NCBI RefSeq assembly: GCF_002742335.1
Contig: NZ_MDGR01000007.1
Location: 434,001-498,000 of the forward strand
Source of the DNA: Reichenbachiella sp. 5M10
GTDB taxonomy: Bacteria > Bacteroidota > Bacteroidia > Cytophagales > Cyclobacteriaceae
Length of the DNA stretch: 64,000 nt
Direction of reading: 5' to 3'
Below the pieces are notes generated by a model that worked only from the letters and a program-made list of their open reading frames with translations, did no database searches and had not been told where the DNA came from. The first letter of the stretch is position 1. The number at the start of each line of letters is the position of its first letter. The translations under genes were made by a program, and so were the position numbers. Below are positions 1,150-29,466 of this stretch, one piece after another.

Positions 1150-1166
1150 TGTAGTCTTTTTCATTG

Positions 1167-2085: not shown

Positions 2086-2153
2086 ACATGGTTTTGACAA
2101 ATGTACTATATTGCACTGGAATTCAAAATAATTTTGTTCATTTTAGCTCTCAT

Positions 2154-4258: not shown

Positions 4259-4291
4259 TGGTGTTGCGAAGATAAAATAAAAAAGCAACAC

Positions 4292-5211: not shown

Positions 5212-6000
5212 ATGGATTTATTCAATTTAAAGGGAAAAGTAGCACTCGTGACGGGTGCTACACATGGTCTAGGGATGGCCATGGCGATGGGACTTGGCAA
5301 AGCAGGAGCGACGGTCGTGATCAACGGCAACTCATCGCAAGAAAAGATCGACAATGCGATCAAAGAATACGAAAAGGAAGGTATCAAGGTCAGCGGTTAT
5401 AAGTTTGACGTGACGGACGAAGCAGCTGTCAAAGCAGCTGTCGCTAAAATCCAGTCGGAAGTAGGGGACATTGATATCTTGGTCAACAATGCTGGGATCA
5501 TCAAGCGCGTGCCGCTCGAAGAGATGGAAGTAGCGGAGTTTGAGCAGGTCATCAAGGTGGATTTGGTAAGCCCATTCATCGTATCCAAGCATGTGGTGAA
5601 AGGTATGATCGCTCGCAAGAGCGGTAAAATCATCAACATCTGCTCGATGATGAGTGAGCTCGGTAGAAATACCGTAGGTGCCTATGCAGCTGCCAAAGGT
5701 GGTCTGAAAATGCTGACGCAAAACATGGCGACAGAGTGGGCCAAACACAATATCCAGACCAACGGAATCGGGCCTGGGTATTTTGCGACGAGCCAAACTG
5801 CTCCTATTCGAGTCGATGGACACCCGTTCAATGACTTCATCGTGGGACGTACGCCTGCTGGCAAATGGGGAGACCCGTCTGATTTGGAGGGCGCAGCGAT
5901 CTTTTTGAGTTCCAAGGCGAGTGATTTTGTCAATGGACAAGTGATCTATGTCGATGGGGGGATCCTCGCGACGATCGGCAAACCAAGCAACGAAGACTAA
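5212..6000 (+). CDS. kduD: 2-dehydro-3-deoxy-D-gluconate 5-dehydrogenase KduD
   Basis: An SDR of 262 residues that reduces the KduI product to 2-keto-3-deoxygluconate using NAD(P)H. The cofactor motif TGATHGLGMAMAMG lies near the N-terminus, followed by NNAGI, the catalytic Ser in ICSMMSELGR and Tyr/Lys in YAAAKGG, and the C-terminal YVDGGILATIG common in KduD. It sits 5 nt after kduI, and its TAA stop overlaps the ATG of the next gene by one base, so the three genes are probably translationally coupled. Gluconate 5-dehydrogenase is the close alternative by sequence, but the kduI partner makes KduD much more likely. Confidence 0.94.
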   Translation: MDLFNLKGKVALVTGATHGLGMAMAMGLGKAGATVVINGNSSQEKIDNAIKEYEKEGIKVSGYKFDVTDEAAVKAAVAKIQSEVGDIDILVNNAGIIKRVPLEEMEVAEFEQVIKVDLVSPFIVSKHVVKGMIARKSGKIINICSMMSELGRNTVGAYAAAKGGLKMLTQNMATEWAKHNIQTNGIGPGYFATSQTAPIRVDGHPFNDFIVGRTPAGKWGDPSDLEGAAIFLSSKASDFVNGQVIYVDGGILATIGKPSNED

Positions 6001-11592: not shown

Positions 11593-11676
11593 ATGAATCT
11601 AAAAAAGCATTGGCAAGAATGGATATTGGGCGCCTTCATCGTGATGATGTCCCTTGTCATTATTTATTTCATTTAA
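11593..11676 (+). CDS. 27-residue single-pass membrane micropeptide upstream of susC
   Basis: An ATG-initiated frame encodes a basic/aromatic N-terminus (MNLKKHWQEW) followed by one hydrophobic helix (ILGAFIVMMSLVIIYFI), then TAA. It starts about 23 nt after the predicted -7 element and ends 15 nt before the susC start, so it would be the first translated unit of the PUL operon. The clean start, the positive-inside pattern and the membrane helix suggest a real small inner-membrane protein. It is too short to place in a family from sequence alone. It could be a leader that tunes susC translation, a stress-type membrane peptide, or chance. Confidence 0.5.
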   Translation: MNLKKHWQEWILGAFIVMMSLVIIYFI

Positions 11677-11691
11677 CAAAAAAACAATCTT

Positions 11692-14600
11692 ATGAAAGAA
11701 GATTTACTACAGCGCTTGAAGCTTGGTCTAGCCGTCTTCGTGATGGTAGCGGTCACCACCGCAGCACAAGCACAGAGCAACACAGTACAAGGGGTAGTCA
11801 CCTCGATGAGCGATGGGTCTCCCGTACCAGGAGCCGCCGTATTGATCGAAGGGACGAGCAACGGAACCGTCACAGACTTTGACGGTGCATTTTCATTGAC
11901 CGCAGCACCAGAAGACGTGCTGGTCATTTCATTTGTGGGGTTCAAGACGGTCAAGTTGGCAGTCAAAAATCAAACGAAATTTGACGTAGCGATGGAGGAA
12001 GATTTCACCGCACTCGAAGAAGTCGTGGTAGTAGGCTATGGTACAGTCAAAAAGAGTGATTTGTCTGGGTCGGTATCGTCAGTCAAGTCCGCAGACATCG
12101 CTGCATATCCTGCTCTGTCCGCTACTCAGACCTTGCAAGGTAGAGCGGCAGGTGTACAGATCAGTTCTAACAATGGCGGCCAGCCAGGGGCCAGTTTCAA
12201 TGTCAAAATCAGAGGAGGGACTTCCATCAACGCCAGCAGTGATCCGATCACGGTAGTGGATGGGTTTGTCGGTGGAGAGATGCCTCCACCAGAAGATATT
12301 GCGTCGATCGAAGTGCTCAAAGATGCTTCGGCTACTGCGATCTATGGATCAAGAGGTGCCAATGGAGTCATCATGGTGACCACCAAAAAAGGATCCAAAG
12401 GAAGAATAAAAATCGACATCAATTCTTCGTATAGTTCTCAGACGCCGACCAAGCAGTTGGATTTGCTCAATGCTGACGAGTTCGTAGACTACATGAATGA
12501 GTTTGGGCCCTATACGAATCTAGGTTCTGACACCAATTGGCAAGACAAAATCTACCAAACAGGGCTCATTTCTAACAACCAAATCTCGGTGAGTGGTGGA
12601 GCAGACAATGTCAGGTATTACCTGTCTGGCACCTACTTTGATCAAGAAGGAGTAGTCGTAGGTTCGGAGTACAAGCGCTACTCTCTCAACGGAAACGTGA
12701 GTGTCGATGCGACCGATTACCTCAAAGTCGGCATGAGCATGTATGGTCGACGAGGTACGAGCATCGGTGTACGTACCCAAGAGGGATCTGGAGGCACTGG
12801 ACAAGCAGGTGTGACAAGTTCGGCTTTGAGATTCAATCCAGACCTAGGTGTCTATGATGTCAACGGAATGTATACGCGATCGACGGTCGGTGACCAACTC
12901 GACAACCCCGTAGCGATGGCTACCGAATATGATAGAGAGCGTGTGACAGATCGCTTTCAGAGCAATGTCTTCGCGGATTTGAAAATTACCGAATGGTTGA
13001 GTTTCAAGACAACTCTCGGGCTTGGGACGACCAACTGGAGAGATGGTGAATATTGGCCTACCGCGTTGATTCGTGGAGAGGGTGCTGGTGGACTAGGAGG
13101 GATCGAATCTCGAAAGCAGTCGTCTGTCATTTCGGAGAACTACTTCACCATTGACAAGGAATTTGGCGTGCATCACTTGACGTGGGTGACGGGGTATTCA
13201 TACCAGAAAAATACGTCTGAATCATGGTATGCTTCTAGCCAAGGGTACATCACTGATGCAGGGAGGTTTTGGGCACTCGATCAAGGAGCCAATGCCAATG
13301 TACCGACTTCTAGTTTGACAGAGTCTACGATTAAGTCATTCTATTCAAGAGCCAACTATTCGTTGCAAAACAAATACGTGTTGACTTTCACGGGACGATA
13401 CGACGGAGCATCCAACTTTGCAGCAAACAACAAGTGGGCCTTCTTTCCTTCAGGGGCGGTGGCTTGGGACATCAAGGGAGAGAGCTTCATGGATGACCTT
13501 GCTTTCTTGACTCAGTTCAAACTCAGAGGTAGCTATGGTTTGACAGGAAATCAAGCCATTAGCCCTTACCAGTCTTTGGCGAGTCTAGAGCCGACCTACT
13601 CGATCGTGCCAGGAGACAATGCACTTGTAGTGGGGTCATTGGCCAATTCTAACTTGACATGGGAGACTACGACACAGGCAGACATAGGATTGGATATTGG
13701 ACTCTTCGAAGGCCGAGTCAATATCGTGATGGATTATTATCAAAAAGTCACGCATGACTTGTTGTTTCAGAGGCAGTTGCCTTCGTATGTAGGCCCACCT
13801 ACTCAGTTGCAAAATATCGGCAAGGTCAGCAACAAAGGCTTTGAGTTCATGTTGAGTACCAAAAATCTCGTCGGAGAATTTACTTGGAATTCGGACTTTA
13901 TCATTTCGGCCAACCGAAACAAGGTGATGGAATTGCCAGATTCGGTAGAGTTTTATGGGCAGGAGCCTGGTCATTTTTTGCTGGATGGTTCGTCACAGTT
14001 GTTGCTGGAAGGACAGCCTGTGGGGGTGTTTTACGGATATGAATATGAAGGAATCTACCAGACGGGAGATGCTTTCACTCCTGGATCAGGGTTCGAACAA
14101 GAGGCTGGAGGTGAGCAATATGCAGATATCTCTGGACCAGACGGTACACCTGATGGTGTGCTCAGTGCCGATGATCGAAAAATCATAGGCAATCCGCACC
14201 CAGATTTCGTGTGGTCATTCAACAATAGTTTTGGCTACAAAAACTTCGATCTCAATATTTTCATACAAGGTGTGCATGGCAATGACATGTTGAGTTTCAC
14301 CAATATGGAGCTAGAGACGATGTCTGGCAAGAGCAACGCTGCGGCATCTGCAGTGGACCGATGGACACCAAGTAATCCCAATACCAATATCGCGAAGGCT
14401 TCTTCGTCACGTGCGTACCGTGTATCGTCCAAGTATATCTATGACGCGAGTTACATGAGATTGAAAAACGTGACGCTGGGCTATACTTTTCCTAAGACAG
14501 TGTTAGACAAAACTTTCATTCGCTCATTGAGACTGTATGTGAGTGGGCAGAACTTGTTGACGGTGACGGATTACCCAGGACTGGATCCAGAAGTAGGGTA

Positions 14601-14706
14601 CCAGAACGGAGGTAGCGGGGCTGACGGCAACCGAAACATAGGTTTGGATTATGCGAGTTATCCAAACGTTCGTGCCTACACTTTTGGAATCAACTTAGGA
14701 CTTTAA
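11692..14706 (+). CDS. SusC-family TonB-dependent outer-membrane glycan transporter
   Basis: A 1004-residue TonB-dependent receptor that imports oligosaccharides across the outer membrane together with SusD. It has a signal peptide ending near AQAQS, an N-terminal carboxypeptidase-regulatory-like domain (VQGVVTSMSDGSPVPGAAV, about residues 30-110), the conserved region LEEVVVVGYGTVKKSDLSGS leading into the plug (about 125-240, with ATAIYGSRGANGVIMVTTKKG), and a long beta-barrel ending in an aromatic-rich terminus (YTFGINLGL). The length is normal for the family. It is followed after 11 nt by susD, and the pair is part of a long operon reaching to 24288. Confidence 0.97.
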   Translation: MKEDLLQRLKLGLAVFVMVAVTTAAQAQSNTVQGVVTSMSDGSPVPGAAVLIEGTSNGTVTDFDGAFSLTAAPEDVLVISFVGFKTVKLAVKNQTKFDVAMEEDFTALEEVVVVGYGTVKKSDLSGSVSSVKSADIAAYPALSATQTLQGRAAGVQISSNNGGQPGASFNVKIRGGTSINASSDPITVVDGFVGGEMPPPEDIASIEVLKDASATAIYGSRGANGVIMVTTKKGSKGRIKIDINSSYSSQTPTKQLDLLNADEFVDYMNEFGPYTNLGSDTNWQDKIYQTGLISNNQISVSGGADNVRYYLSGTYFDQEGVVVGSEYKRYSLNGNVSVDATDYLKVGMSMYGRRGTSIGVRTQEGSGGTGQAGVTSSALRFNPDLGVYDVNGMYTRSTVGDQLDNPVAMATEYDRERVTDRFQSNVFADLKITEWLSFKTTLGLGTTNWRDGEYWPTALIRGEGAGGLGGIESRKQSSVISENYFTIDKEFGVHHLTWVTGYSYQKNTSESWYASSQGYITDAGRFWALDQGANANVPTSSLTESTIKSFYSRANYSLQNKYVLTFTGRYDGASNFAANNKWAFFPSGAVAWDIKGESFMDDLAFLTQFKLRGSYGLTGNQAISPYQSLASLEPTYSIVPGDNALVVGSLANSNLTWETTTQADIGLDIGLFEGRVNIVMDYYQKVTHDLLFQRQLPSYVGPPTQLQNIGKVSNKGFEFMLSTKNLVGEFTWNSDFIISANRNKVMELPDSVEFYGQEPGHFLLDGSSQLLLEGQPVGVFYGYEYEGIYQTGDAFTPGSGFEQEAGGEQYADISGPDGTPDGVLSADDRKIIGNPHPDFVWSFNNSFGYKNFDLNIFIQGVHGNDMLSFTNMELETMSGKSNAAASAVDRWTPSNPNTNIAKASSSRAYRVSSKYIYDASYMRLKNVTLGYTFPKTVLDKTFIRSLRLYVSGQNLLTVTDYPGLDPEVGYQNGGSGADGNRNIGLDYASYPNVRAYTFGINLGL

Positions 14707-14717
14707 AATTGAAGAAA

Positions 14718-16292
14718 ATGAAAAATTTGAAATATACATTGATCGCATGTCTGTCGCTACTCATGATGGGTGCCTATTCATGCGGCACCTTGGAGGAGGA
14801 GCCCGTGGGGCTGCTGTCTCCAGAGGCAACCTACAAGACTCCGTCAGATGTCGCCAACGGCATCAATGGAGGCTACTCCTTGCTCGCCCACGAAAATTTC
14901 ATGGGCAGAAAACTCTCACTTTCGTTGATGTTGAGAGGCGACATGATTTCTATAGGTGACGCGACGACTTCTTCTCGTCGCATCGAGGTGGATCAGATGT
15001 CCATGAGTGCCAACAACGGGATGGTGGCTAGTTTTTGGCCGATGGGTTACCAGATATTGGCAGCTGTCAATTACGCGATCGAGGGCGGAGAGAGTGTCCA
15101 AGCAGACGAAGATCAAATCAATCCTGTGATTGCTGAGGGACGTTTTTTGCGCGCATACATTCACTACAACTTTGTTCGATTGTTTGGCGAGATTCCTTAC
15201 ATTGATTTTGCCTTTGCAGATGCAGAATTGGCATATACACTACCTCAGACTCCTGTGGATGAAGTGTATGCGGGGATTATAGAGGATCTAGAGTATGCCA
15301 AGATGTGGCTCCCGGATGTGGCGCTCAGAAGGGCCAGACCAAGCAAGGGTACCGCTGCGAGTTTTTTAGCTTCTGTGTACTTGACGATAGAGGATTGGGA
15401 TGCCGCGTATGCTGAAGCCAAATATGTGATTGACAACAGCGGCAAGTTCATGTACAACCTTGAGGCAGACTATGCGGATCTCTACAACTCTTCTTTAGCG
15501 GGAGCATCCAACGAGGTGATTTTCGAAATCGATTTCCAAGGAAACGATGCTGCCGGTAACCCGAGTTCACTTGGGGGGGGCAATGCAGCGACGGATTATA
15601 TCGCGTCAGTGACTGGACCTAGAGGAGACGAGCGCTACGAGACAGGCGAAGGCTGGAGTGTTGCCGTACCGTTATTGGACGTGTATGATTCGTGGGATGC
15701 TCAGGACTATCGCCGTGCGGTGAGTTTCGATACTTCGATCATCTATTTGGGGGTTGAGACACCCTATACAGATTGGGGTAGTATTGCCAATAATGTTGCA
15801 CGTCCACATATTGCGAAGTATTTTAGAGCTACAGGCGAAGCGGGTACGCTAGCGGCCAACAATAGCAGAGACTCTGATGTGGATTTTCCGGTGATGCGCT
15901 ATGCAGAGGTATTACTGATAGCTGCCGAAGCACTCAACGAAATGAATGCTGGACCGAATGCAGAGGCAGAAGGCTACATCAACGAGGTACGCCGTAGAGC
16001 ACGTAGAGAGCTGGATGGTGATGCTGCCAATGATAGTCCCGTGCCTGCCAATGTGAGCGCGGGCTTGTCACAAGATGCTTTTCGAGATGTGGCATTGGAC
16101 GAGAGACGTTTGGAGTTGGCCTTCGAAGGTGTCCGCTGGTATGACGTCAAAAGAAGGAAGCTGGGAGACATCGTTTTCGCGGCGAGTGGAAGAGAACCTC
16201 AAAACTTCAACCCTGCCAAGGATTACTTGTTTCCCAAGTATCAGGCAGACGTAGATAGAAACGAAAACTTGTATCAAAACGATAATTACTGA
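14718..16292 (+). CDS. SusD/RagB-family surface glycan-binding lipoprotein
   Basis: Cell-surface lipoprotein forming the lid of the SusC transporter and binding the glycan. The ATG at 14718 gives 524 residues with a lipoprotein signal (MKNLKYTLIACLSLLMMGAYSC); a TTG nine bases upstream is in frame but a less likely start. SusD hallmarks are visible: ANGINGGYSLL near the N-terminus, AEGRFLRAYIHYNFVRLFGEIPYID in the TPR region, and the C-terminal FRDVALDERRLELAFEGVRWYDVKRR followed by NPAKDYLFP. Its stop overlaps the start of the GH88 gene (ATGA), indicating tight coupling. Confidence 0.97.
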   Translation: MKNLKYTLIACLSLLMMGAYSCGTLEEEPVGLLSPEATYKTPSDVANGINGGYSLLAHENFMGRKLSLSLMLRGDMISIGDATTSSRRIEVDQMSMSANNGMVASFWPMGYQILAAVNYAIEGGESVQADEDQINPVIAEGRFLRAYIHYNFVRLFGEIPYIDFAFADAELAYTLPQTPVDEVYAGIIEDLEYAKMWLPDVALRRARPSKGTAASFLASVYLTIEDWDAAYAEAKYVIDNSGKFMYNLEADYADLYNSSLAGASNEVIFEIDFQGNDAAGNPSSLGGGNAATDYIASVTGPRGDERYETGEGWSVAVPLLDVYDSWDAQDYRRAVSFDTSIIYLGVETPYTDWGSIANNVARPHIAKYFRATGEAGTLAANNSRDSDVDFPVMRYAEVLLIAAEALNEMNAGPNAEAEGYINEVRRRARRELDGDAANDSPVPANVSAGLSQDAFRDVALDERRLELAFEGVRWYDVKRRKLGDIVFAASGREPQNFNPAKDYLFPKYQADVDRNENLYQNDNY

Positions 16293-17491
16293 TGATGAAT
16301 TTAAGAATTTTAGCTGTACTGGCTTTGTCACTTTGCTTGGGTTGCGAAGAGGCAGCGGACAAGAGTGGGAGTAATGAAGACGGAAACACAAATTCTTTAC
16401 CAATCAAACCGAGCCTCAGTGCTCGGTTTGATTACTTACTCAATTACGCGGTAGACTCTACGGCATTTCCTCGAAGTTTGGAAAAGAACAAAGAAGTACG
16501 AGGAGTCCCTTCCTCAGATTGGACCAGCGGTTTTTTCCCGGGTTCGCTCACATACCTCTACCTATTGACCGGTGAGGACAAGTATTTGGCTCGAGCCAAA
16601 GCATGGGTGCCATATATGGAAAAAGAACAATGGAACGGGCGTACTCACGATATGGGGTTCAAAGTCTACTCGAGTGTTGGCAAAGTCAACGAGATTACTC
16701 CAGAGCGACACTACGAAGAGGTGCTCATCCAAAGCGCCAACACCTTGATGACCCGCTACAATCCAGTGATAGGCTGTACCAAGTCTTGGGATTTTGGTCA
16801 GGACAAATGGCAATTTCCCGTCATCATTGACAACATGCTCAACTTAGAGCTATTCTTTCAAGCGACACGTTTGACAGGTGATAGCAGCTACCATCAAGCG
16901 GCCGTCTCTCATGCAACACAAACGATGCGCAATCATTTTCGTCCCGATTACAGTAGTTACCATGTCGTAGACTATGATGTGGAGACGGGACAGCCTGTAC
17001 AGAAGATCACCCACCAAGGGATTCATGATGAGTCTGTATGGTCGAGAGGTCAGGGCTGGGGACTATATGGTTTTACGATGGTCTATCGCTACACACAGGA
17101 CCCTATATTTTTGGCGCAAGCCGAGAAGATCGCCAATTTCATCATGACGCAGGACAACTTGCCAGAGGACAAAATATTCTATTGGGATATGAAAGATCCC
17201 AACATCCCCAATGCTCCACGAGATGCCTCGGCTGCCGCGGTGATTGCTTCGGGCTTGTTCGAACTGGATGAGTACACGACGGATGAGCGATATGCGACAT
17301 TCGCCCAACAGATCATGGAGTCACTGGACTCAGAGGCTTATATCTTGCCGACTGAGATGACTGTGCCGTTTTTGCTAGGACACAGCACGGGCAACTATCC
17401 TAAGGATGATGAAATAGACGAACCGATTGCTTATGCAGATTATTATTTTTTGGAGGCGCTATACCGATCGACTCCTTCGGGTCAAAAGTAA
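16292..17491 (+). CDS. GH88 unsaturated glucuronyl hydrolase, lipoprotein
   Basis: Hydrates and thereby releases the 4,5-unsaturated uronate at the non-reducing end of lyase-generated oligosaccharides; the product feeds KduI. The 399-residue protein has a lipoprotein signal (LALSLCLGC) and an alpha6/alpha6-barrel sequence. Two Asp residues fall in the conserved GH88 positions: Asp120 in THDMGF and Asp180 in DNMLNLELF, 60 residues apart, as in the Bacillus enzyme (Asp88 and Asp149). WTSGFFPGSLTYLY near the N-terminus and HDESVWSRGQGWGLYGF are further GH88 signatures. It lies between susD and a GH2 gene in the same operon. It is the strongest evidence that the polymer is attacked by a lyase. 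GH105 is the alternative family, but GH88 fits better. Confidence 0.93.
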   Translation: MMNLRILAVLALSLCLGCEEAADKSGSNEDGNTNSLPIKPSLSARFDYLLNYAVDSTAFPRSLEKNKEVRGVPSSDWTSGFFPGSLTYLYLLTGEDKYLARAKAWVPYMEKEQWNGRTHDMGFKVYSSVGKVNEITPERHYEEVLIQSANTLMTRYNPVIGCTKSWDFGQDKWQFPVIIDNMLNLELFFQATRLTGDSSYHQAAVSHATQTMRNHFRPDYSSYHVVDYDVETGQPVQKITHQGIHDESVWSRGQGWGLYGFTMVYRYTQDPIFLAQAEKIANFIMTQDNLPEDKIFYWDMKDPNIPNAPRDASAAAVIASGLFELDEYTTDERYATFAQQIMESLDSEAYILPTEMTVPFLLGHSTGNYPKDDEIDEPIAYADYYFLEALYRSTPSGQK

Positions 17492-17540
17492 AGAACGAAT
17501 CGGGTGGGGAAACCTGCTCTAGGTGGATAAAGTAATGGAT

Positions 17541-19925
17541 ATGAAGAGATCAATATGGATTTTGCTGGGCATACTGTTTGCACAGAGCAGCTTGGCGTTG
17601 GAGAGAGAGAAGAGCAATTTTAATGCTTCGTGGGAGTATTTGGAGCAGGCAGCTCCAAGTACTGCAGAGGCGAATCAAGAGACCGGATGGGTGACACTAG
17701 ATCTGCCCCACACCTGGAACGCCACCGATGTGATGGATCAAACACCTGGCTACCGTAGGGATGCGAGCTGGTATCGCAAGACTTTTGATCTAGGTGATTT
17801 GAGCGAAGGCGAGAGGTGTTTTCTGTACTTCGAGGGTGCCAATATCACGACGGATGTCTATGTCAACGGGCACTTCGTCACCAAGCACATCGGAGGCTAC
17901 ATCGGGTTCGAAGCGGAGATGACTGAATACCTTGTCCAGGGCGCCAATACGGTCATGGTGCGTGTAGACAATGGCTATGATCCACAGGTCATTCCTTCAC
18001 AAAAGTCAGATTTTTTCATCTACGGAGGGATCACGAGAGACGTGTGGTTGGTCAAGACGAATGCCTTGCGAATCACAGATGTGAGTATCGCGACACCAGA
18101 GGTCAGTGCCAAAAGGGCCACTACCGGCATCACTGTAGACCTAGAAGGAAACCTCACGGAGGGCTACCAGACCCGTATCCAAGTGATCGACCCAAGGGGG
18201 CGAGTCGTCTACGATCAAAAATCAGCCACACAAAGACAGACAGTGACCAATTTTCAAATCACCAAGCCAAGATTGTGGGACGTGGCTAATCCGCAGCTGT
18301 ACAATGTAAAGATACAACTCTTGCAAAACGGCAAAGTTGTCGATCAAGTAGAAGACACTTATGGCTACCGATGGTTTGAGTTTGCACAGAATGGTCCGTT
18401 CTATCTCAACGGCAAACGTCTGCTGCTGCGTGGTACGCACCGTCACGAGGAGTCTGCAGGGATCGGTGCTGCCCTCCCCAATGAGATGCACCGTCAGGAT
18501 ATGGAGATGATCAAAGGCATGGGAGCCAATTTTGTCCGACTAGCGCACTATCCCCAGGACCCGGAGATATACAAGGCCTGTGACGAATTAGGTATTCTTG
18601 TCTGGGACGAATTGCCATGGTGCAGAGGAGGAGTCGGAGACGAGACATGGAAGACCAATACCAAAAACCTGCTCACCGAGATGATTGACCAAAATTACAA
18701 TCACCCGAGCATCATCCTCTGGTCACTTGGCAATGAAATCTATTGGTTGCCGGATTTTGAAAACGGCGATGACGAGCAGGAGCTCAATGCCTTCCTCACT
18801 GAGCTCAACGACCTGTCCCATGCACTAGATCCAAGTCGAAAGACGTCTATTCGCAAGTACTACGCGGGAGCAGATATCGTCGATGTATTCAGTCCGTCGA
18901 TCTGGTCGGGATGGTACTCAGGGACCTACAAGGGATATAAGAATGCGCTCGAAAAATCACTGGCGAAGTACGATCACTTCCTGCACATGGAGTATGGAGG
19001 GTCGAGTATGGTCGGTCGCCACAGCGAAAACCCCATCACCGGCGATGGAGAGATCAGTGCTGGAGATTGGGAAGAGCCCATCAATCAGGTAGAATACCAC
19101 AACATCGCCAACGATGGAGATTGGAGCGAAAACTACATCGTGGACTTGTTTGACTGGTATCTGTCGATTTCTGAGTCTCACGAGCAATTTGCAGGTTCTG
19201 CTCAGTGGGCGTTCAAGGATTTTGGCACGCCACTACGTCCTGAGAATGACATCCCGTATCTCAACGAAAAAGGGCTGGCAGATCGCTCGGGCAAACCCAA
19301 AGATGCTTATTATGTGTTTAAGAGCTACTGGTCAGATGAGCCCTTCGTCTATATCGAGTCACACACGTGGACAGAGCGATCTGGTCCAGAGGGCAAGGCC
19401 AAAAACATCTCTGTATTCAGCAACAACGAGACCGTAGAATTGATTGTGAATGGGCAGAGCCTCGGCAAGAAAACCAGAGACATGAGTCAGTATCCTGCTT
19501 GCGGACTCAACTGGGATGTGCAGTTTCAAGCAGGCGAAAACACCTTCGAGGCGATTGGGTACCAAGGCAAGAAAGTCGTATCGGTCGATTCGCTGATAGT
19601 CAATTACAGCTTTGAACAGGCAGGTGCGCCAGATCAGATCGTGCTATCGGCCGAGTTGCTAGACAATGGCAACTACCTCGTGACAGCCAAGGCGGTAGAC
19701 GCCAAGGGACTGCGGTGTTTGGATTATGAGGACAGGGCCTATTTTCAGTGCCTCGCAGGAGGCGAACTGATCAAGGATCAGGGGACACCTACAGGTAGTG
19801 AGGTGATCAATATGGCCAATGGACGAGCAGCGATCGAGGTGGTGCCTCATCCCAAAAGCGAGAAATTGGTGATGGGAGTGTACAACCAAAACTTCAAGGG
19901 GACCTACTTGGAAATCAAGAAGTGA
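17541..19925 (+). CDS. GH2-family glycoside hydrolase (beta-galactosidase/beta-glucuronidase-like)
   Basis: Exo-acting retaining beta-glycosidase of 794 residues from ATG 17541, which opens a signal peptide (MKRSIWILLGILFAQSSLA); GTG 17523 and ATG 17535 are in-frame alternatives. The GH2 order is visible: N-terminal sugar-binding domain (TLDLPHTWNATDV, SWYRKTFDL), immunoglobulin-like domain, TIM barrel with RGTHRHEE, the acid/base Glu399 in LWSLGNEI and the nucleophile Glu484 in HMEYGG, then C-terminal beta domains. No lipobox, so probably periplasmic. Galactosidase, glucuronidase or mannosidase activity cannot be separated by eye. In this operon it would trim residues exposed after GH88 action. 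Confidence 0.9.
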   Translation: MKRSIWILLGILFAQSSLALEREKSNFNASWEYLEQAAPSTAEANQETGWVTLDLPHTWNATDVMDQTPGYRRDASWYRKTFDLGDLSEGERCFLYFEGANITTDVYVNGHFVTKHIGGYIGFEAEMTEYLVQGANTVMVRVDNGYDPQVIPSQKSDFFIYGGITRDVWLVKTNALRITDVSIATPEVSAKRATTGITVDLEGNLTEGYQTRIQVIDPRGRVVYDQKSATQRQTVTNFQITKPRLWDVANPQLYNVKIQLLQNGKVVDQVEDTYGYRWFEFAQNGPFYLNGKRLLLRGTHRHEESAGIGAALPNEMHRQDMEMIKGMGANFVRLAHYPQDPEIYKACDELGILVWDELPWCRGGVGDETWKTNTKNLLTEMIDQNYNHPSIILWSLGNEIYWLPDFENGDDEQELNAFLTELNDLSHALDPSRKTSIRKYYAGADIVDVFSPSIWSGWYSGTYKGYKNALEKSLAKYDHFLHMEYGGSSMVGRHSENPITGDGEISAGDWEEPINQVEYHNIANDGDWSENYIVDLFDWYLSISESHEQFAGSAQWAFKDFGTPLRPENDIPYLNEKGLADRSGKPKDAYYVFKSYWSDEPFVYIESHTWTERSGPEGKAKNISVFSNNETVELIVNGQSLGKKTRDMSQYPACGLNWDVQFQAGENTFEAIGYQGKKVVSVDSLIVNYSFEQAGAPDQIVLSAELLDNGNYLVTAKAVDAKGLRCLDYEDRAYFQCLAGGELIKDQGTPTGSEVINMANGRAAIEVVPHPKSEKLVMGVYNQNFKGTYLEIKK

Positions 19926-19974
19926 TACCTATCCGTCTGTACGGATAATGGAGAAAGAATTAAACAGCATGAGT

Positions 19975-22623: not shown

Positions 22624-22632
22624 CAACAGCGG

Positions 22633-24288
22633 ATGAAAAGAATATTGGCATATTTACTCATGGGGGTAGGGTTGTTGGCGCTTTCGTGTGCAGCGATGGC
22701 TCAAAACCTACCCGCAATCCTATCCGACCCCAAGGTACAAGCTCATAATTATCTTCCAGATTACTCTTATGCAGGGTATCGTTTTGGTGAGGAGAAGATC
22801 CCAACACAGACAGAATCTACAGTGATTCATGTATTGGATTTTGGGGCAGTACCAGACGATGGACTCGATGATACCCAGGCTATTTTTTCTGCTTTGGCGA
22901 AAGCCAATGACGTGGAGGGTAAGGTACAGCTGCAGTTTCCGAGTGGTCGGTTCATTCTGAGCGACATCCTCTACCTCACTCGTAGTGATATCGTCCTACG
23001 TGGAGCAGGCAGTGGAGTAGCAGGTACGACGCTGTACTACCCACGTCCGATGAGTTACTTTGAGGACCCAGAGCCCTTGACGGAATTGAGAGAGTACTTG
23101 GTGGCACTGGACAAGCGCCAGCGTGAGCCACAAAACAATTTGGATTTGCCGTTTTCGCAATATGCCTGGTCTGGCGGGATGATCTGGGTCGCTGTGCCTG
23201 GCGCACGGGTCAAATCCTATCTCGACAAGTACGACAAGAAGCCCAAAGTACTTGCCAAATTGCTGCAGGGCAAGAGAGGAGAGCATGAGATTACTGTCGC
23301 ATCAGCGAGTAAGTTACACGTAGGTGATGTGGTGCAGCTCGAGTGGTACAACAAAGAAGGAAAGGATGGTTCGCTGATCCAATCGATGTACGATTCAGCA
23401 GATGTCAAGATCGGGTCGCATCACTGGAAGTACCCCAGTCATGCGCTTGTGATGCAGCAGGTGCAAATCACGACCATCGAAGGGAACAAAGTATCGATCA
23501 AAGACCCTCTGCTCCACGACATCCAAGAGGCATGGCAGCCACAGATGGTAGAGTGGCAGCATTTGGAGGAAGTGGGTATAGAGCATTTCAACATTGAGTT
23601 TCCGATGGCGCCCAACATCGCACACCACGTCGAGGATGGCTACAATGCCATCTACCTCACCAACCTGTTCAATGGGTGGGTGAGGGATGTCAAGATCAAA
23701 AATGCGGACAGCGGTATCCTCACCGAACAAATTTCCAATGTGACCATCGAGGAGATCACAACGATCGGTGACAAGAAAGCGCACTATAGCGTGGCGATGG
23801 GTTCGGTGCACAACGTCCTCGTGCGTGATCTCAGCGTACACAATCGGGTGATTCATCCGTTGAGTTTCAATACGCATGCTACCAAGAGTGTCTACACTCA
23901 ATGTACCGTGTATCGAGATCCGATACTGGATCAGCACTCAGGAGCCAATCACCAAAACTTGTTTGATGATATCCGAGTCTATGTCGATTTGGATGGAGAG
24001 AAATACCCATTGTTCGCTGGAGGTGGAGCAGGGTATTGGAAACCTTCGCATGGAGCCTACACGACCTTTTGGAACATCGATGTGCGGTTTCAAAACCGAA
24101 TGGATGATCCGCAACCTGTCTTGCTCGATGGTATGAAGGATGGACCCTCGGTACGTTTGATTGGTATACATGCCAACCGTGAGATAGTGCTTGACTACCA
24201 GCCCAATCCGTACATAGAGGAGACCAACGAAGAAATGATTACTGTACCCTCTTTGTATACATACCAGCTGCAGCAGCGCACGAAATAG
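22633..24288 (+). CDS. Right-handed beta-helix protein, paralogue of the preceding gene (putative polysaccharide lyase)
   Basis: A 551-residue secreted protein with an N-terminal signal peptide (AYLLMGVGLLALSCAAMAQ) and no C-terminal sorting domain, so more likely periplasmic. An LSCAA cysteine sits in the signal region, but its surroundings fit type I cleavage after AMAQ better. The Pectate_lyase_3-like opening (VIHVLDFGAVPDDGLDDTQAIFSAL) is followed by beta-helix-type repeats. The segment DQHSGANHQNLFDDI ... HGAYTTFWNIDV parallels the preceding protein. It starts 9 nt after that gene and ends the operon; a strong terminator follows. The pair may divide the work: the surface enzyme cuts polymer and this one processes imported oligosaccharides. 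Glycosidase activity is the main alternative. Confidence 0.75.
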   Translation: MKRILAYLLMGVGLLALSCAAMAQNLPAILSDPKVQAHNYLPDYSYAGYRFGEEKIPTQTESTVIHVLDFGAVPDDGLDDTQAIFSALAKANDVEGKVQLQFPSGRFILSDILYLTRSDIVLRGAGSGVAGTTLYYPRPMSYFEDPEPLTELREYLVALDKRQREPQNNLDLPFSQYAWSGGMIWVAVPGARVKSYLDKYDKKPKVLAKLLQGKRGEHEITVASASKLHVGDVVQLEWYNKEGKDGSLIQSMYDSADVKIGSHHWKYPSHALVMQQVQITTIEGNKVSIKDPLLHDIQEAWQPQMVEWQHLEEVGIEHFNIEFPMAPNIAHHVEDGYNAIYLTNLFNGWVRDVKIKNADSGILTEQISNVTIEEITTIGDKKAHYSVAMGSVHNVLVRDLSVHNRVIHPLSFNTHATKSVYTQCTVYRDPILDQHSGANHQNLFDDIRVYVDLDGEKYPLFAGGGAGYWKPSHGAYTTFWNIDVRFQNRMDDPQPVLLDGMKDGPSVRLIGIHANREIVLDYQPNPYIEETNEEMITVPSLYTYQLQQRTK

Positions 24289-24314
24289 CTACGTTTTATT
24301 CAGTGTATTATTTC

Positions 24315-24349
24315 AAGGTTGTTGGTCGAAAGATCAACAACCTTTTTTT
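24315..24349 (+). terminator. Strong rho-independent terminator of the susCD operon
   Basis: A 13-bp stem (AAGGTTGTTG 24315-24324 with CAACAACCTT 24335-24344, extended by a G-U and two further pairs) closes on a GAAA tetraloop and runs into seven T. It marks the end of the 12.7-kb operon that starts before the micropeptide. Confidence 0.9.
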
Positions 24350-24584
24350 ATGGGATAGATTTTTAGGAGTATGCTCGATGACCCAAAGGATAGGACGGAG
24401 GAGAGATGGAGGTATTCTTTCTTTCATATGGGGACGGAGAGAGGGAAAGAGCTCATATGTCTAGGGATTACCATCCATACACCCGTCGCTGTTGGTACAG
24501 AGATTCTTTGTAGGTAGCAGGCCTGCGGTTTTGGCCTGCAATCCTTGATTCCTAATTTTGTGATGGGCTTTTGCTACGAGGTAT
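24350..24584. other. Non-coding gap between convergent PUL transcription units
   Basis: No credible gene is visible here. The only structure is a 7-bp hairpin, GCAGGCC (24517-24523) with GGCCTGC (24533-24539), without a T-run. The rest is purine-rich spacer between the beta-helix gene and the TIG lipoprotein gene. Confidence 0.6.
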
Positions 24585-24615
24585 AAAAAATGCCGAGAAG
24601 TAATCTTCCCGGCAT
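24585..24615 (-). terminator. Terminator of the TIG lipoprotein gene
   Basis: On the minus strand ATGCCGGGAAG (24615-24605) pairs with CTTCTCGGCAT (24600-24590) with one mismatch and a 4-nt loop, followed by TTTTTT. It lies 38 bp past the stop of the lipoprotein gene. Confidence 0.85.
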
Positions 24616-24652
24616 AGAGTTAAACCAACTTATTGTGTTTTCGAAGCTGAAC

Positions 24653-25936
24653 TTAGTAGCTCAATGGACCACCAATTGAGATGCTCACGTTATCGAAGCT
24701 CAAAGTCGCTAAGATAGATCCAGTGTCTGGTCCTAGAGGCAAGGCAGTACCCGTGCCGTAGTTTCTTCTTTGGGCGACTGCATACCTGGTCATGTCTTTG
24801 AAATCGAAAGTGCCAATTGCTGCATCGTCATCGAAAGCCGTGGCAGGGACAGAGAGGCTGTACCAGCCATTTTCATCCGCTTCATAGCCCATGTCGTGTA
24901 TCTCTTGGAGGGTAGGTTGCCATTCGTAATCATCGCCTTCGAACCTGAATCTCAAACCAGCGACTACAGCGCCTTCGGACTCGGTGTAGCCCTCTGGCAA
25001 CTCGCCAAAGTTGATTTGGATGTTGAAATACACATCTTTTGCATCGAGGTTGTCACCAAAGAAGTCCGCAAATGTACCCACGTCCTGCGTACGCAATCCA
25101 AGTTGTGCCATGTAGCTGGTACTGATCTCTGTGCTGCTGTATCCTTCCATGTGAAAGAACGTCCCGTCGATCGCTGGTGGTAGATCCGTAGCGTCTTCGG
25201 ATACATCTATGCTGAGCCCATGCACGGTTGATTCTTCTACGTCTGCACTACCAGTCATACCGATCACGTTTGGATCTTCACTGTCGAAAGTCTCCTGGTA
25301 GATCTCGTCAATCATTTTGATCACATAGAATTTGTGCATCTCTGTCGAGGTAGTCGCTGTCCCTCCGTCATTGACGATCGTGAGGGTGCTGAGACCAAGG
25401 GCTGATCCCTCTGCGATAGTGACGATTGCGGTAGTTTCTGTCGTGCTTGCCACGGTGGCTTCTACTTCACCTATTTTGACAGAGGTGACGGTCAGCATGT
25501 CTGTACCCGTGATGGTGATTTGTTCACCTATTTGTGCAGATTTGGGGCTGATTTCTGACACGACAGCCGCTCCTACGACGATCACACTGAAATCCACTTG
25601 AGTCTCTGCTACTCCTCCAGGTGTAGTGACTCTGATTTTGCCTGTCACACCATCTTCAGGTACGGAAGTGACGATTTCTGTAGTGCTATTGGAGGTGATT
25701 GTAGCGGGGACACCGCCGAATGTCACCGACTCTGCATCGTCGAGATCTGTACCAGTAATCGTGATCGCGTCACCTGGCTCTCCGCTTTCTACACTGATAG
25801 CTGTGATCGTAGGGATGGGGGCTGTAGTGTCGCCTTCGTCTTCACTACATGAGACGAATACGGAAGCGAATAGTATGAGGGCTCCTGCCGCCCAAGTACT
25901 CTTGATTTTTACGTTTTTTGATAAAATTTTATACAT
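24653..25936 (-). CDS. IPT/TIG-domain surface glycan-binding lipoprotein
   Basis: A 427-residue lipoprotein (signal AAGALILFASVFVSC, then an acidic SEDEGDT stretch that resembles a surface-export signal). Two tandem IPT/TIG Ig-like domains follow (about residues 40-120, IDs TAISVESGEPGDAITITGTDL; and about 125-210, SEISPKSAQIGEQITITGTDM). A C-terminal domain of about 215 residues probably holds the glycan-binding site. This layout is that of SusE/SGBP-type proteins, which capture polysaccharide at the cell surface for SusC/D. It is transcribed toward the susCD operon instead of within it, yet its promoter region repeats the susC motif, so co-induction is likely. It has no catalytic signature. 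Confidence 0.85.
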   Translation of the reverse strand: MYKILSKNVKIKSTWAAGALILFASVFVSCSEDEGDTTAPIPTITAISVESGEPGDAITITGTDLDDAESVTFGGVPATITSNSTTEIVTSVPEDGVTGKIRVTTPGGVAETQVDFSVIVVGAAVVSEISPKSAQIGEQITITGTDMLTVTSVKIGEVEATVASTTETTAIVTIAEGSALGLSTLTIVNDGGTATTSTEMHKFYVIKMIDEIYQETFDSEDPNVIGMTGSADVEESTVHGLSIDVSEDATDLPPAIDGTFFHMEGYSSTEISTSYMAQLGLRTQDVGTFADFFGDNLDAKDVYFNIQINFGELPEGYTESEGAVVAGLRFRFEGDDYEWQPTLQEIHDMGYEADENGWYSLSVPATAFDDDAAIGTFDFKDMTRYAVAQRRNYGTGTALPLGPDTGSILATLSFDNVSISIGGPLSY

Positions 25937-25961
25937 AGTATGAATATTTAGTTTTCTGACT

Positions 25962-26019
25962 CATAGTTAGTGAGAATCAAAAATCTAGAAATTCAGAATG
26001 GGGTACAAAATCGTACAAT
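25962..26019 (-). promoter_or_regulatory. Putative HTCS-binding site and promoter of the TIG lipoprotein gene
   Basis: Read on the minus strand from 26019: ATTGTACGATTTTGTACC with two GTAC cores 10 bp apart, then TCTGAATTT. This is the same order as at susC. A -7-like TAACTATG lies at 25969-25962, beginning 50 bp from the motif start, against 49 bp at susC. Confidence 0.6.
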
Positions 26020-26185
26020 CACTCATTGGGCGCTGTATAGGCTTGTTTTTGGAAGGGAAAGAGGGCCCGTAGTATAGGGGACGAGTGAGTGTCTAGTGTC
26101 AGAGAGAGGGAGTGGTGTCAGAGATTGACAGGAAGAGGGGGTGGACAGCCTAGCGTTTCAATGTGCGCTTGGGAGGTAGGAGGCT

Positions 26186-26908
26186 TCATAGAAATGCGAT
26201 ATCATACCCATCGTCGACCAGAGAAAAGTACTTCTCTTCGTTGAACTGATAGAGAAACGCACCCTTCTTGGAAGCACTCTTGTCTTTTTTGTCCAAGCGA
26301 TCCAGTATTCCTGTAGAGAGTATTTTCTTTCGGAAGTTTCTGTCGTCTATGGGAGCTTGGTAAATCTCCATATAGAGTTTGAGCAGCTTGGGTAGGGTAA
26401 ACTCATCAGGAAGGAGGTTGAAACCAATCGGTTTGCGCTTGATCTTGCCCTGTAGATGTGTCAGTGCATCTTGTACCATGTGGTTGTGATCTACGACGAG
26501 TGGGGGGATGTCTGTCAGGTCAAACCATCGGGCTTGGTAGGTATTGACGAGCTCGTCATTTTGCTCATTGATCCGAATTAGGCTGTAGTAGGTGATAGAG
26601 ATGACACGTGCCCCTGGGTCACGGCTAGGCTGTGTGTAGGCGTGAAACTGCTCGAGATAGACTTCATCAAGCCCTGTGAATTTTTGAAGAATACGTGCTG
26701 CAGCCTGTACGCCCGATTCTTGGGGTTGGATGAAACTCCCGATCAACGACCAGGTCCCTGCTTGAGGAGCGACTTGCCTTTTGAAGAGCAGTACTTTCAG
26801 TTTCTCTTCGTCTGGGTCAAATCCAAAGATGACATTGTCTACTGCGACCAAGATGGGGGTAGCTTCTTGATAAGATTCCGAATGGGTAGGGGATTGTGCT
26901 GCATTCAT
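26186..26908 (-). CDS. Nudix-fold transcriptional regulator (NrtR/AraR-like), catalytically degenerate
   Basis: A 240-residue regulator: N-terminal Nudix domain (about residues 15-150) fused to a C-terminal winged helix (about 155-235, GFNLLPDEFTLPKLLKLYMEIYQ, then NFRKKIL). In the Nudix box the expected REUXEEXGU reads RILQKFTGL, so the catalytic Glu residues are absent and the domain should bind a ligand rather than hydrolyse one. Bacteroidota AraR, a regulator responding to L-arabinose, is of this kind. It is divergent from a GH2 lipoprotein gene with a spaced palindrome between them that overlaps its own promoter. Effector unknown; a sugar released by the GH2 enzyme is plausible. Confidence 0.88.
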   Translation of the reverse strand: MNAAQSPTHSESYQEATPILVAVDNVIFGFDPDEEKLKVLLFKRQVAPQAGTWSLIGSFIQPQESGVQAAARILQKFTGLDEVYLEQFHAYTQPSRDPGARVISITYYSLIRINEQNDELVNTYQARWFDLTDIPPLVVDHNHMVQDALTHLQGKIKRKPIGFNLLPDEFTLPKLLKLYMEIYQAPIDDRNFRKKILSTGILDRLDKKDKSASKKGAFLYQFNEEKYFSLVDDGYDIAFL

Positions 26909-26918
26909 AATTCAAGGC

Positions 26919-26960
26919 CAAAACTACACAAAATATCATAAACGTTTGCTGTACGTTTAT
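26919..26960 (-). promoter_or_regulatory. Promoter and palindromic operator of the Nudix regulator
   Basis: TAGTTTTG on the minus strand (26926-26919) is a perfect TAnnTTTG -7 element, 11 bp from the regulator's start codon. ATAAACGT (26938-26945) and ACGTTTAT (26953-26960) form an 8-bp inverted repeat with a 7-bp spacer, covering the -33 region. Autorepression, and control of the divergent GH2 gene, is inferred. Confidence 0.65.
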
Positions 26961-27037
26961 TGTGATGAGCTCAGTCTTGGATCGAGAGAGACAGGTTGTT
27001 TATTCGCTGTTTCTGATACATGGATGGAGAGATGTAA

Positions 27038-27045
27038 TAGAATTG
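27038..27045 (+). promoter_or_regulatory. Possible -7 element of the GH2 lipoprotein gene
   Basis: TAGAATTG, followed by TC, is the same 10-mer found at the predicted susC -7 element (11563-11572). It lies 85 bp upstream of the GH2 start. Weak evidence on its own. Confidence 0.35.
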
Positions 27046-27129
27046 TCGTTTTTTGGTGGATTAGTACAATTCCGTCCCTGCATAATGAGAGATCATTGTG
27101 TTCGATACGATTACTATTTTTTTGAAAAG

Positions 27130-29466
27130 ATGAAAAGACTAACAACGGCAATTTCGGCACTAGCGGTTCTCCTACTTGTACAGTGTTCCTCACCGGAGAT
27201 CACTACTCGACGTGTGACAGATTTTAATTCAAATTGGACATTCACTAGTGATAGCACCGGACAACAAGGCTGGGCCAAAGTCCAACTCCCTCATACAGCA
27301 CGAATCGAGCCGTTGGTCGTCAACGACATGTGGCAGGGGACCTGCTGGTATGAAAAAGTTTTTGAATTGGGGAGTCTAGAAGATCAACGTGCTTTCGTAC
27401 GCTTCGAGGGAGTGATGCACGAGGCAGACATTTGGGTCAACGATACTTTCGTGACCAAGCATGTCGGAGGCTATTTGCCGTTTGTGGTAGATGTCACAGA
27501 CTATGCCTTGGTAGGGCAAAATAACATTCGTCTTCGCGTCAATAACGAAGACAACCCAGTCATCCCTCCAGGCAAGGCCATCGACGTGTTGGACTTTAGT
27601 TACTACGGAGGGATCTATCGCGATGTGACTCTTACGATCACCCACGATATCCACATCACGGATGCGGTGGCGGCTGATCAGGTCAACGGTGGAGGAGTCT
27701 TGGTGCATTTCACAGAGGTGAGCAAAGAACTGGCCAAGGGAATCGTCAAAGTCCATCTTCGAAACGATGGAGATTTGGACCGTGCAGTGCGGTTCACGGC
27801 AGATATCGGAGGGACAACAGTACGCACGGAGGCTGCTTGGCTGCATGGGCACAGCGATACGACACTGATACAAGCGATTGAGATTGTCAAGCCGAGATTG
27901 TGGGAACCACAATCTCCAGAACTCTACACCTTGAGCATTGAGGTAGAGGCAGACGACCAAGTAGTGGATCATCTCGAAGAGTCAACGGGGATTCGTCAGA
28001 TTGAGCTGACCGAGGACGGTTTTTTCCTCAACGGAGAAAAACTATTTATACGCGGAACCAACCGTCATCAAGAGTATCCTTACATAGGCTATGCACTCTC
28101 TGACGAAGCTCAGTATAGAGATGCTGTCAAGATCAAGAATGCGGGCTTTGACATGGTACGCTTGTCACACTACCCACAGGATGAAGCTTTTTTGCAAGCC
28201 TGTGACGAACTGGGGATCATCGTCATGAACTGTCTCACGGGATGGCAATTTGTAGGAGATGAGGCTTTCATTGCCAATTCGTACCAAGAGATACGAGACA
28301 TGATTCGTAGGGATCGCAACCATCCCAGTGTGTTTTTTTGGGAGGTATCACTCAATGAGTCTGGCATGTCAGACGAGTTTATGACGACTGCCAATGCCAT
28401 CCTTGACGCGGAGCTACCCTATCAAGATATTTACAGTGCGGGGTGGATTGATCATCCCGCTTACGACCTATTCATCCCGGCGAGACAGCACGGCAAGAGT
28501 CCCGATTATTGGAATTTCTACCAAGATGGCCAGCGCAAAGTCTTCGTGGCAGAGTACGGTGATTGGGAGTATTATGCACAGAATGCGGGCTTCAATCAAA
28601 AAGCCTTTGAGGACTTGGCCGAGGAAGCACGTACGAGTCGTCAGCTCAGAGGAGCCGGCGAACAGCGTCTCCAGCAGCAGGCTCTCAATTACCAAGAAGC
28701 AGCAAACTCCAACCGCAAAGGGCAGGACGTCGGTACGATTGGGCATGCCAACTGGCTGATGTTTGATTACAATCGGGGCTATGCCGATGACATAGAATCC
28801 TCTGGGATCAGTGATATTTTTCGTTTGCCAAAATTCGCTTTTTCCTTCTATAGGAGTCAGAGACCGGCAGCAGAGTATTATGACTTTGCGGCTAGCGAGG
28901 CAGGACCAATGGTGGAGATTGCAAGCTATTGGACGGCAGAATCTGCTCCGCAGATCAAAGTCTACAGCAATACGGAAGAAGTGATGCTCTACCTCAACGA
29001 CGAATTGTTCGGCCAGAAGACCGTCGAGCGAGACGTGTATTCGACGGATTTGGATTTCCCTCCTTTCGTTTTTGACTTGGAGGCGTTCGAAGAGGGGACG
29101 TTGAAGGCAGTTGCCAAGATAGGTGGACAGGTGGTGGCCAAGGATAGCGTATCGACTCCTAAAGCTCCCGTCACCATCAAGTTGTCCGTGGATCTATCTG
29201 GTGTACCTTTGGCAGAGGAGCAGTCCGATGTGGTATTCGTGTATGCTCAGATCGTGGATCAGCATGGGACTCTGGTACCGACCGATGAGCGAGCGGTGAC
29301 TTTCACGCTAGATGGGGCTGAGGCCGAATTGATTGGGGAAAATCCTGTGAAGGCTGAAGCAGGTATAGCGACGATTTTGCTACGTACACATTCGTTTGTA
29401 CAGGATCTGACTATTCGTGCGAGGGCCGAAGGAGTAGCCTCTGACGACTTGGTCCTTCAAAAGTGA
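27130..29466 (+). CDS. GH2-family glycoside hydrolase, lipoprotein
   Basis: A second GH2 enzyme, 778 residues from ATG 27130, with a lipoprotein signal (SALAVLLLVQC). The open frame continues upstream to 26962, but that part is not signal-like and would bury the lipobox, so I reject the longer form. N-terminal sugar-binding domain (WAKVQLPHTARI, CWYEKVFEL), Ig-like domain, TIM barrel with RGTNRHQEYPYIGYAL, predicted acid/base Glu410 in WEVSLNES and nucleophile Glu475 in VAEYGD, then C-terminal beta domains. The acid/base motif reads SLNE instead of the common GNE. It is only distantly similar to the operon GH2, so probably of different specificity. It is monocistronic, divergent from the Nudix regulator, and closed by a terminator. 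Confidence 0.9.
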   Translation: MKRLTTAISALAVLLLVQCSSPEITTRRVTDFNSNWTFTSDSTGQQGWAKVQLPHTARIEPLVVNDMWQGTCWYEKVFELGSLEDQRAFVRFEGVMHEADIWVNDTFVTKHVGGYLPFVVDVTDYALVGQNNIRLRVNNEDNPVIPPGKAIDVLDFSYYGGIYRDVTLTITHDIHITDAVAADQVNGGGVLVHFTEVSKELAKGIVKVHLRNDGDLDRAVRFTADIGGTTVRTEAAWLHGHSDTTLIQAIEIVKPRLWEPQSPELYTLSIEVEADDQVVDHLEESTGIRQIELTEDGFFLNGEKLFIRGTNRHQEYPYIGYALSDEAQYRDAVKIKNAGFDMVRLSHYPQDEAFLQACDELGIIVMNCLTGWQFVGDEAFIANSYQEIRDMIRRDRNHPSVFFWEVSLNESGMSDEFMTTANAILDAELPYQDIYSAGWIDHPAYDLFIPARQHGKSPDYWNFYQDGQRKVFVAEYGDWEYYAQNAGFNQKAFEDLAEEARTSRQLRGAGEQRLQQQALNYQEAANSNRKGQDVGTIGHANWLMFDYNRGYADDIESSGISDIFRLPKFAFSFYRSQRPAAEYYDFAASEAGPMVEIASYWTAESAPQIKVYSNTEEVMLYLNDELFGQKTVERDVYSTDLDFPPFVFDLEAFEEGTLKAVAKIGGQVVAKDSVSTPKAPVTIKLSVDLSGVPLAEEQSDVVFVYAQIVDQHGTLVPTDERAVTFTLDGAEAELIGENPVKAEAGIATILLRTHSFVQDLTIRARAEGVASDDLVLQK

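Follow-up and report, generated by a model that had tools for sequence, protein, structure and literature searches.

Polysaccharide lyase (PL) family 29 is known from gut Bacteroides acting on animal glycosaminoglycans (GAGs), as far as the available parts of the two activity reports go (PMC6994673, PMC9067506), and in Bacteroides thetaiotaomicron a PL29 enzyme and a glycoside hydrolase (GH) of family 88 occur together in a polysaccharide utilization locus (PUL) for chondroitin sulfate, dermatan sulfate and hyaluronan (CS/DS/HA), according to the accessible text of PMC6994673. Here we describe a PUL of Reichenbachiella sp. 5M10 that carries two proteins of this kind, A and B, in a stretch of 64,000 nucleotides (henceforth the window; positions 434,001 to 498,000 of contig NZ_MDGR01000007.1, assembly GCF_002742335.1; G000:C7:434001-498000 in our numbering), which is part of a 4.6-Mb genome. 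An original prediction, made from the DNA letters, had described the locus as one for a uronic acid polymer in which two beta-helix proteins were the only candidates for the first cut. We find that its architecture is that of an ordinary PUL, with two divergent PL29-like proteins and an enzyme core directed at glucuronic acid (GlcA) that is conserved in two genera. With roughly even confidence, we propose that this PUL serves a non-sulfated polymer mainly of beta-linked D-glucuronic acid, of the beta-glucuronan type, which protein A would cut outside the cell and protein B in the periplasm. The conserved unit extends from position 7368 of the window to 24288 and comprises:

7368..11471, plus strand: hybrid two-component sensor/regulator (HTCS; Reg_prop, Y_Y_Y, HisKA, HATPase_c, Response_reg and HTH_18 domains)
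11692..14706, plus strand: SusC-like TonB-dependent transporter (PF00593, PF07715, PF13715)
14709..16292, plus strand: SusD-like glycan-binding protein (PF07980, PF14322)
16292..17491, plus strand: GH88 unsaturated glucuronyl hydrolase (PF07470, E 4e-14)
17523..19925, plus strand: GH2a, predicted beta-glucuronidase
19948..22623, plus strand: protein A, PL29-like beta-helix protein, predicted surface endo-lyase (PF12708, PF16315, PF17957, PF18962)
22633..24288, plus strand: protein B, second and more distant PL29-like beta-helix protein, predicted periplasmic lyase

Kinship of proteins A and B to PL29

The original prediction had seen no known lyase family in the locus, but this view, and with it the idea that A and B lack a recognisable family, was overturned by their matches to the NCBIfam model NF058554 ('BT3328 family hyaluronic acid endo-lyase', after the PL29 founder). 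Protein A matches positions 305-828 of the 840 in the model (E 2.1e-61, 208 bits) and protein B matches in two stretches (E 3.2e-30, 105 bits), so that a described family is indeed hit with low E-values, but at scores far under its membership cut-off of 1100 bits; L049, a member over the cut-off, reaches 1247 bits. The N-terminal region of PL29, about 300 residues (PMC6994673), is absent from A, whose match starts at model position 305, and B is 551 amino acids (aa) long with its Pect-lyase motif at residues 65-128. Catalytic domains from other genomes form a gradient of NF058554 scores (941, 774, 532, 409 and 258 bits), at the lower end of which stand A, three other B-type proteins (89-110 bits) and a phage protein (65 bits). 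When a profile of 15 B-type proteins was aligned with one of 10 A-type and PL29 proteins, the two matched over 479 columns (E 4.4e-60). Homology to PL29 hence covers the whole catalytic domain, by the model match for A and by the profile alignment for B. Judged from their sequences, A and B are distant relatives of PL29 that form an uncharacterised branch; what stands of the earlier expectation of a new lyase family or substrate is this branch, and what does not is that it would be unrecognisable. B is possibly a CAZy family of its own, sister to PL29, with a new substrate, or a subfamily.

In Pfam, protein A shows a Pect-lyase_RHGA_epim motif, DUF4955 (a domain of which the literature searched held no mention), three Big_7 repeats and a type IX secretion system (T9SS) sorting tail. 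Protein B shows the Pect-lyase motif only; by eye it has a signal peptide and no T9SS tail. Neither protein matched PF05426 or PF14099 (PL5/PL38- and heparin-lyase-type) in Pfam at E 0.001. A scan of genome contigs with A returned one locus, which matched residues 589-759 only, in the Big_7 region.

An alignment of 31 proteins, including three PL29 rows (one protein over the cut-off and two below it) and one phage protein, showed H299, H355 and H379 of A to be conserved in all 31 and H406 in 30. This count leaves aside five rows that are outgroups or have long branches: H299, H355 and H379 are present in three of these, and L080 and L095 are without H299 and H355. Histidine was enriched among the conserved columns (4 versus about 1 expected), with a P of 0.02 that treats columns as independent and is indicative only, and the four near-invariant histidines, which in B are H331, H384, H408 and H435, are candidates for the active site. 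L046_7639-10716 (15% identity, seemingly misaligned) was excluded from the later alignment and tree, and in this tree, whose long branches and midpoint root mean that it carries no argument, the PL29 proteins group with A-like proteins and the phage protein with B.

The phage protein is a B-like protein of 470 aa (L104:4899-6311, also L105 and L106) found in IMG/VR viral contigs of 142, 277 and 224 kb; it is about 30% identical to B along almost all of its length and matches NF058554 with E 5.5e-18. The contigs appear to be those of a large tailed phage, two of the three with a tail sheath gene, and the protein is possibly a PL29-like phage depolymerase.

Partner enzymes directed at GlcA

The GH88 protein scores 52.7 bits against PF07470 (cut-off 26.6), a model that covers GH105 besides GH88. 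All eight Protein Data Bank (PDB) sequences matched at E 0.001 are of GH88 type, being named GH88 family, unsaturated glucuronyl or chondroitin-disaccharide hydrolase, or putative gbs1889, and the protein is therefore assigned to GH88 and not to GH105, in keeping with the earlier statement that no GH105 is present. Its closest PDB entry is 3wiw (313 bits; next entries about 159), with which the THDMGF and VIIDNMLN segments align.

For GH2a the closest PDB entries are 6d1p (628 bits), named GH2 only, and 6d7j (581 bits), named beta-glucuronidase, as is 6dxu. GH2a has NEKG at residue 581 (N581-E-K-G), at the place of the glucuronidase NxK motif, and NxKG is the carboxylate-recognition motif of GH2 beta-glucuronidases. 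This motif is present in all six GH2a orthologues checked (four from congeners, one from a genome of a second genus, g62, and L101), as well as in a more distant L098 protein and in GH2c of g62. Against the NCBIfam model for LacZ4 beta-glucuronidase (NF050095) GH2a scores 390 bits, under the cut-off of 950 bits. We predict on these grounds that GH2a is a beta-glucuronidase.

A sulfatase, a GH28 or a classical PL domain gave no Pfam match in the 18 main proteins scanned between positions 1 and 30459, which bears out the earlier reading on sulfatases and GH28, and Pfam revealed no lyase in the PUL besides A and B, which supports their standing as the only candidates there for the first cut. With its SusC/SusD pair, degradative enzymes and sensor, the locus has what defines a Bacteroidota PUL.

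Conservation and wider contexts of the core

Orthologues of B were present in four of the seven congeners searched (65-78% identity), and all four have a syntenic PUL with HTCS, SusC, SusD, GH88, GH2a, A and B; by profile search, full-length B is found in five of the eight genomes of the genus, the window's included. When 395 genomes of the phylum were surveyed with NF058554, 38 gave a match, one of them over the cut-off. In g62, full-length B occurred in 15 of 61 genomes searched, and we compared all 20 g62 loci with full-length B that were found, 7 from the phylum survey and 13 more from the genus search. All 20 have a single cluster with B, HTCS, GH88 and GH2a. SusC and SusD stand between HTCS and GH88 in 13, and are missing there from the remaining 7 (L127, L131 and L133-L137), where the enzyme core thus persists without the transporter pair. 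Since B is the sole PL29-like protein of the g62 core, A looks like an addition in the genus of the window. UxuA and 2-keto-3-deoxy-6-phosphogluconate aldolase were confirmed in one g62 locus and UxaC in two. As side observations, B of L130, a locus with SusC/D, has a confirmed MFS transporter gene as its neighbour, and in L135-L137 B is preceded by open reading frames (ORFs) that match this gene in size and resemble it at their start; a congener without a B orthologue (G002) has at least three other PL29-like genes (L041, L043 and L044), and one PL29-like gene of this genome stands beside GH88 and scores 532 bits with NF058554, far above A.

Outside both genera, G400 and G124, two genomes from another family, have lyases of PL6 type, heparinase-II/III type and PF05426 in the neighbourhood of B; GH2a (53-55% identity) is within about 9 and 15 kb of B and the PF05426 lyases are within about 18 kb. 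Four of these PF05426 proteins, when aligned, were nearest to PDB entries 3nfv and 8bdq, both presumably PL38. This family includes glucuronan lyases, and its enzymes act on alginate, glucuronan and hyaluronan, according to the available text of PMC13027841. G124 also holds a natural GH88-GH2a fusion of 1176 aa (L120:5377-8907, minus strand; GH88 at residues 59-393, GH2a at 403-1175), and the fusion gene adjoins PF05426 lyase genes. A PF05426 protein comes directly after GH2a in all five g62 loci scanned (L133-L137). Of the places retrieved, 13 have an A-type or PL29 gene, a count from which more distant beta-helix hits were excluded, and in 8 of them GH88 lies in the same stretch; the PL29 places L089 and L090 are not among these 8.

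Flanking genes and extent of the locus

Upstream of HTCS lies a block with KduI and KduD, and further genes reach to the edge of the window, just beyond which are genes for UxaC and a TRAP transporter:

1..1164, minus strand: UxuA, mannonate dehydratase (PF03786, E 2.5e-126); the gene continues past the window edge
1167..2003, minus strand: UxuB-type short-chain dehydrogenase/reductase (SDR; PF00106), with 89% and 85% identity in two congener loci, in one of which the orthologue is near UxaC
2076..3194, plus strand: LacI regulator 2 (PF00356)
3242..4300, minus strand: LacI regulator 1 (PF00356 and PF13377)
4364..5206, plus strand: KduI, isomerase for the product of unsaturated uronate (PF04962, E 1e-28)
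5212..6000, plus strand: KduD-type SDR (PF00106, E 1e-56), with 91-99% identity in three of four congener loci
6000..7208, plus strand: DUF4861 protein (PF16153, E 3e-85)

The DUF4861 protein adjoins KduI/KduD and has close orthologues in two of the four syntenic congener loci and a distant one in a third. Downstream of B are:

24653..25936, minus strand: IPT/TIG protein, possible surface glycan-binding protein (PF01833, E 2e-17)
26186..26908, minus strand: Nudix/NrtR-AraR-type regulator, probably outside the core (PF00293, PF21906, PF19368)
26962..29466, plus strand: GH2b, probably neither a glucuronidase nor part of the core

The orthologue of the IPT/TIG protein is directly beside B in G005, one ORF off in G001 and elsewhere in G004, and none was seen in the syntenic stretch of G007. 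GH2b and the Nudix regulator (26186-29466) were rejected as members of the PUL: neither was found in the four syntenic 37-kb stretches of the congeners, and the single NxKG of GH2b lies, by eye, off the GH2a position, so that GH2b is probably not a glucuronidase. The earlier inventory of SusC/D, GH88, two GH2 enzymes, KduI/D, UxuA/B and two beta-helix proteins hence stands as a list of genes, with boundaries that are redrawn to exclude GH2b.

Proposed function

GH88 enzymes and KduI/KduD act on lyase products, and a lyase is therefore required; together with UxuA/B, this gene content supports the earlier view of a PUL for uronates in which unsaturated uronate has to be produced. We infer that A and B are the lyases and that they divide the labour. 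Protein A should be located outside, because of its T9SS tail, and would, once exported by the type IX system, act on the polymer at the surface of the cell and cut it by beta-elimination. The resulting oligosaccharides would be imported by SusC/D. Protein B, which is probably periplasmic given its N-terminal signal peptide (by eye) and its lack of a T9SS tail, would cut them further. GH88 would then take the unsaturated uronate off each new non-reducing end and GH2a would remove the saturated glucuronate behind it, and repetition of this cycle would consume the chain. The unsaturated product would be processed by KduI/KduD, and glucuronate would be converted to 2-keto-3-deoxygluconate (KDG) by UxaC, UxuB and UxuA.

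On a homoglucuronan, the residue exposed after GH88 is GlcA, which GH2a can take with no need for a hexosaminidase; on hyaluronan it is N-acetylglucosamine, and the main role left to a beta-glucuronidase would be the trimming of saturated ends. No hexosaminidase or other hexosamine enzyme was recognised in the locus. The conserved GH88-GH2a pair, its natural fusion and this lack of hexosamine enzymes in the locus together favour a GlcA-rich polymer.

Evidence against a glucuronan substrate and alternative readings

Several observations, gathered here, weigh against the proposed substrate. According to the accessible parts of PMC6994673 and PMC9067506, hyaluronan and chondroitin sulfate are cleaved by the PL29 enzyme that was tested, and mean identity to PL29 is 25% for A and 21% for B. 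A PUL for hyaluronan or unsulfated chondroitin, in which A and B would cut the GAG, GH88 would split unsaturated disaccharides and GH2a would only trim saturated GlcA ends, is the main rival, which we consider somewhat improbable. It draws on the kinship of A and B to PL29 and on the company of PL29 and GH88 in B. thetaiotaomicron. It draws too on the chondroitin PUL of B. caccae, where, in the available text of PMC12269599, another enzyme, a dehydratase, is paired with GH88 and removes saturated GlcA ends, so that the pairing of GH88 with an enzyme that removes GlcA does not prove a homopolymer. The genome also encodes, elsewhere, a NagB-type protein, 14 sulfatase matches and four other GH88-family matches. 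Such a GAG locus is, however, harder to reconcile with the absence from the PUL, as searched, of PL8, PL33 and sulfatases, unlike the CS/DS/HA locus, and of a recognised hexosamine enzyme, and unsaturated disaccharide products need no beta-glucuronidase that is conserved and once fused to GH88.

The wider contexts are not uniform either. L079 (G308), which holds the nearest outside relative of A, places it among fucosidase genes (GH29, GH95) and genes for GH31, GH88, GH2 and a PF05426 lyase. Sulfatases follow in three g62 loci, two in L135 and one confirmed in each of L136 and L137 (L134 has no ORF of sulfatase size at the matching place), and the substrate of this L135-L137 branch may be sulfated or mixed. 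The PF05426 and PL6-type neighbours described above fit alginate or dermatan as well, and a PUL with GH88 and GH2 has, in the available part of PMC6298971, glucuronomannan as its proposed substrate. The L079 and sulfatase contexts, the glucuronomannan proposal and the thought that the neighbouring GH2b could be a galactosidase speak for another GlcA-rich bacterial or algal polymer with neutral parts (glucuronomannan, or a fucosylated or sulfated uronan) on which A and B would still be lyases. We regard this as unlikely: the four syntenic stretches showed no GH2b, and the B-HTCS-GH88-GH2a cluster has no neutral-sugar hydrolase.

Finally, when A and B were searched against the PDB by sequence and by profile, the matches with an E of at most 0.001 fell, besides the Ig-like repeats of A, only in the first ~220 residues, and they include epimerases, GH28-type and GH110 enzymes. 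An AlphaFold model of B from a three-sequence alignment had a mean pLDDT of 48 and a pTM of 0.53, too weak to place active-site residues; Foldseek with this model returned right-handed beta-helix proteins, phage tailspikes first and a Klebsiella K1 capsule lyase among them (lowest E 9e-11; among the best 50 of 496 matches, TM normalised by B did not exceed 0.35). The fold of B is probably a beta-helix, a statement at the level of fold only. A and B could on this showing be hydrolases, epimerases or binding proteins, with the lyase encoded elsewhere, and one heparinase-type lyase does occur elsewhere in the genome. This seems very improbable to us, given their catalytic-domain kinship to a lyase family shown by experiment and the clustering of B with GH88 in every one of the 20 g62 loci.

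Significance

Among the papers listed by our searches of the literature outside subscription journals, there was no Bacteroidota PUL for glucuronan and, by titles and abstract openings, no glucuronan PUL with PL29-like lyases. The present results extend the relatives of PL29 to a large second genus and to further families of the phylum, in clusters with a beta-glucuronidase, and PL29-like matches should consequently not default to an annotation as hyaluronan lyase. The branch is apparently widespread, and apparently carried by a large virus. If B cuts glucuronan, then B, GH88 and GH2a would be a defined gene set for this polyuronide, and the GH88-GH2a fusion and the conserved histidines make substrate and mechanism directly testable. 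A bolder and more tentative proposal, to which we give less than even credence, is that the B clade is a new polysaccharide lyase family, sister to PL29 and specific for polymers of the beta-glucuronan type, which with GH88 and beta-glucuronidase would form a widespread Bacteroidota module, and that its relative in large tailed phage would be a capsule-type depolymerase.

Comparison with known systems

With PL29 and BT3328 (BtCDH), A and B share a beta-helix catalytic domain that aligns over its length and the near-invariant histidines, and the loci share GH88, HTCS, SusC/D and the expectation of a surface enzyme for the first cut. They differ in that identity is 21-25%, scores lie below the family cut-off and the N-terminal region of PL29 is absent here, and in that this PUL has a beta-glucuronidase and, as searched, no PL8, PL33 or sulfatase. 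The CS/DS/HA PUL of B. thetaiotaomicron (BT3324-BT3350) likewise follows the logic of PL29, GH88, HTCS and SusC/D, but its sulfatases and PL8 were not found here, whereas a GH2 beta-glucuronidase and a second PL29-like protein are. Phage beta-helix tailspike depolymerases are the top Foldseek matches of the weak B model, and a B-like gene occurs in contigs of large tailed phage; in contrast to the tailspikes, A and B belong to a bacterial PUL and, by eye, carry signal peptides, and the structural match is at fold level only. Glucuronan lyases (PL20, PL38 and others) differ from A and B, for which Pfam gives neither PF05426 nor PF14099, but they share the predicted substrate, and PF05426 lyases accompany B in G400, in G124 and in five g62 loci.

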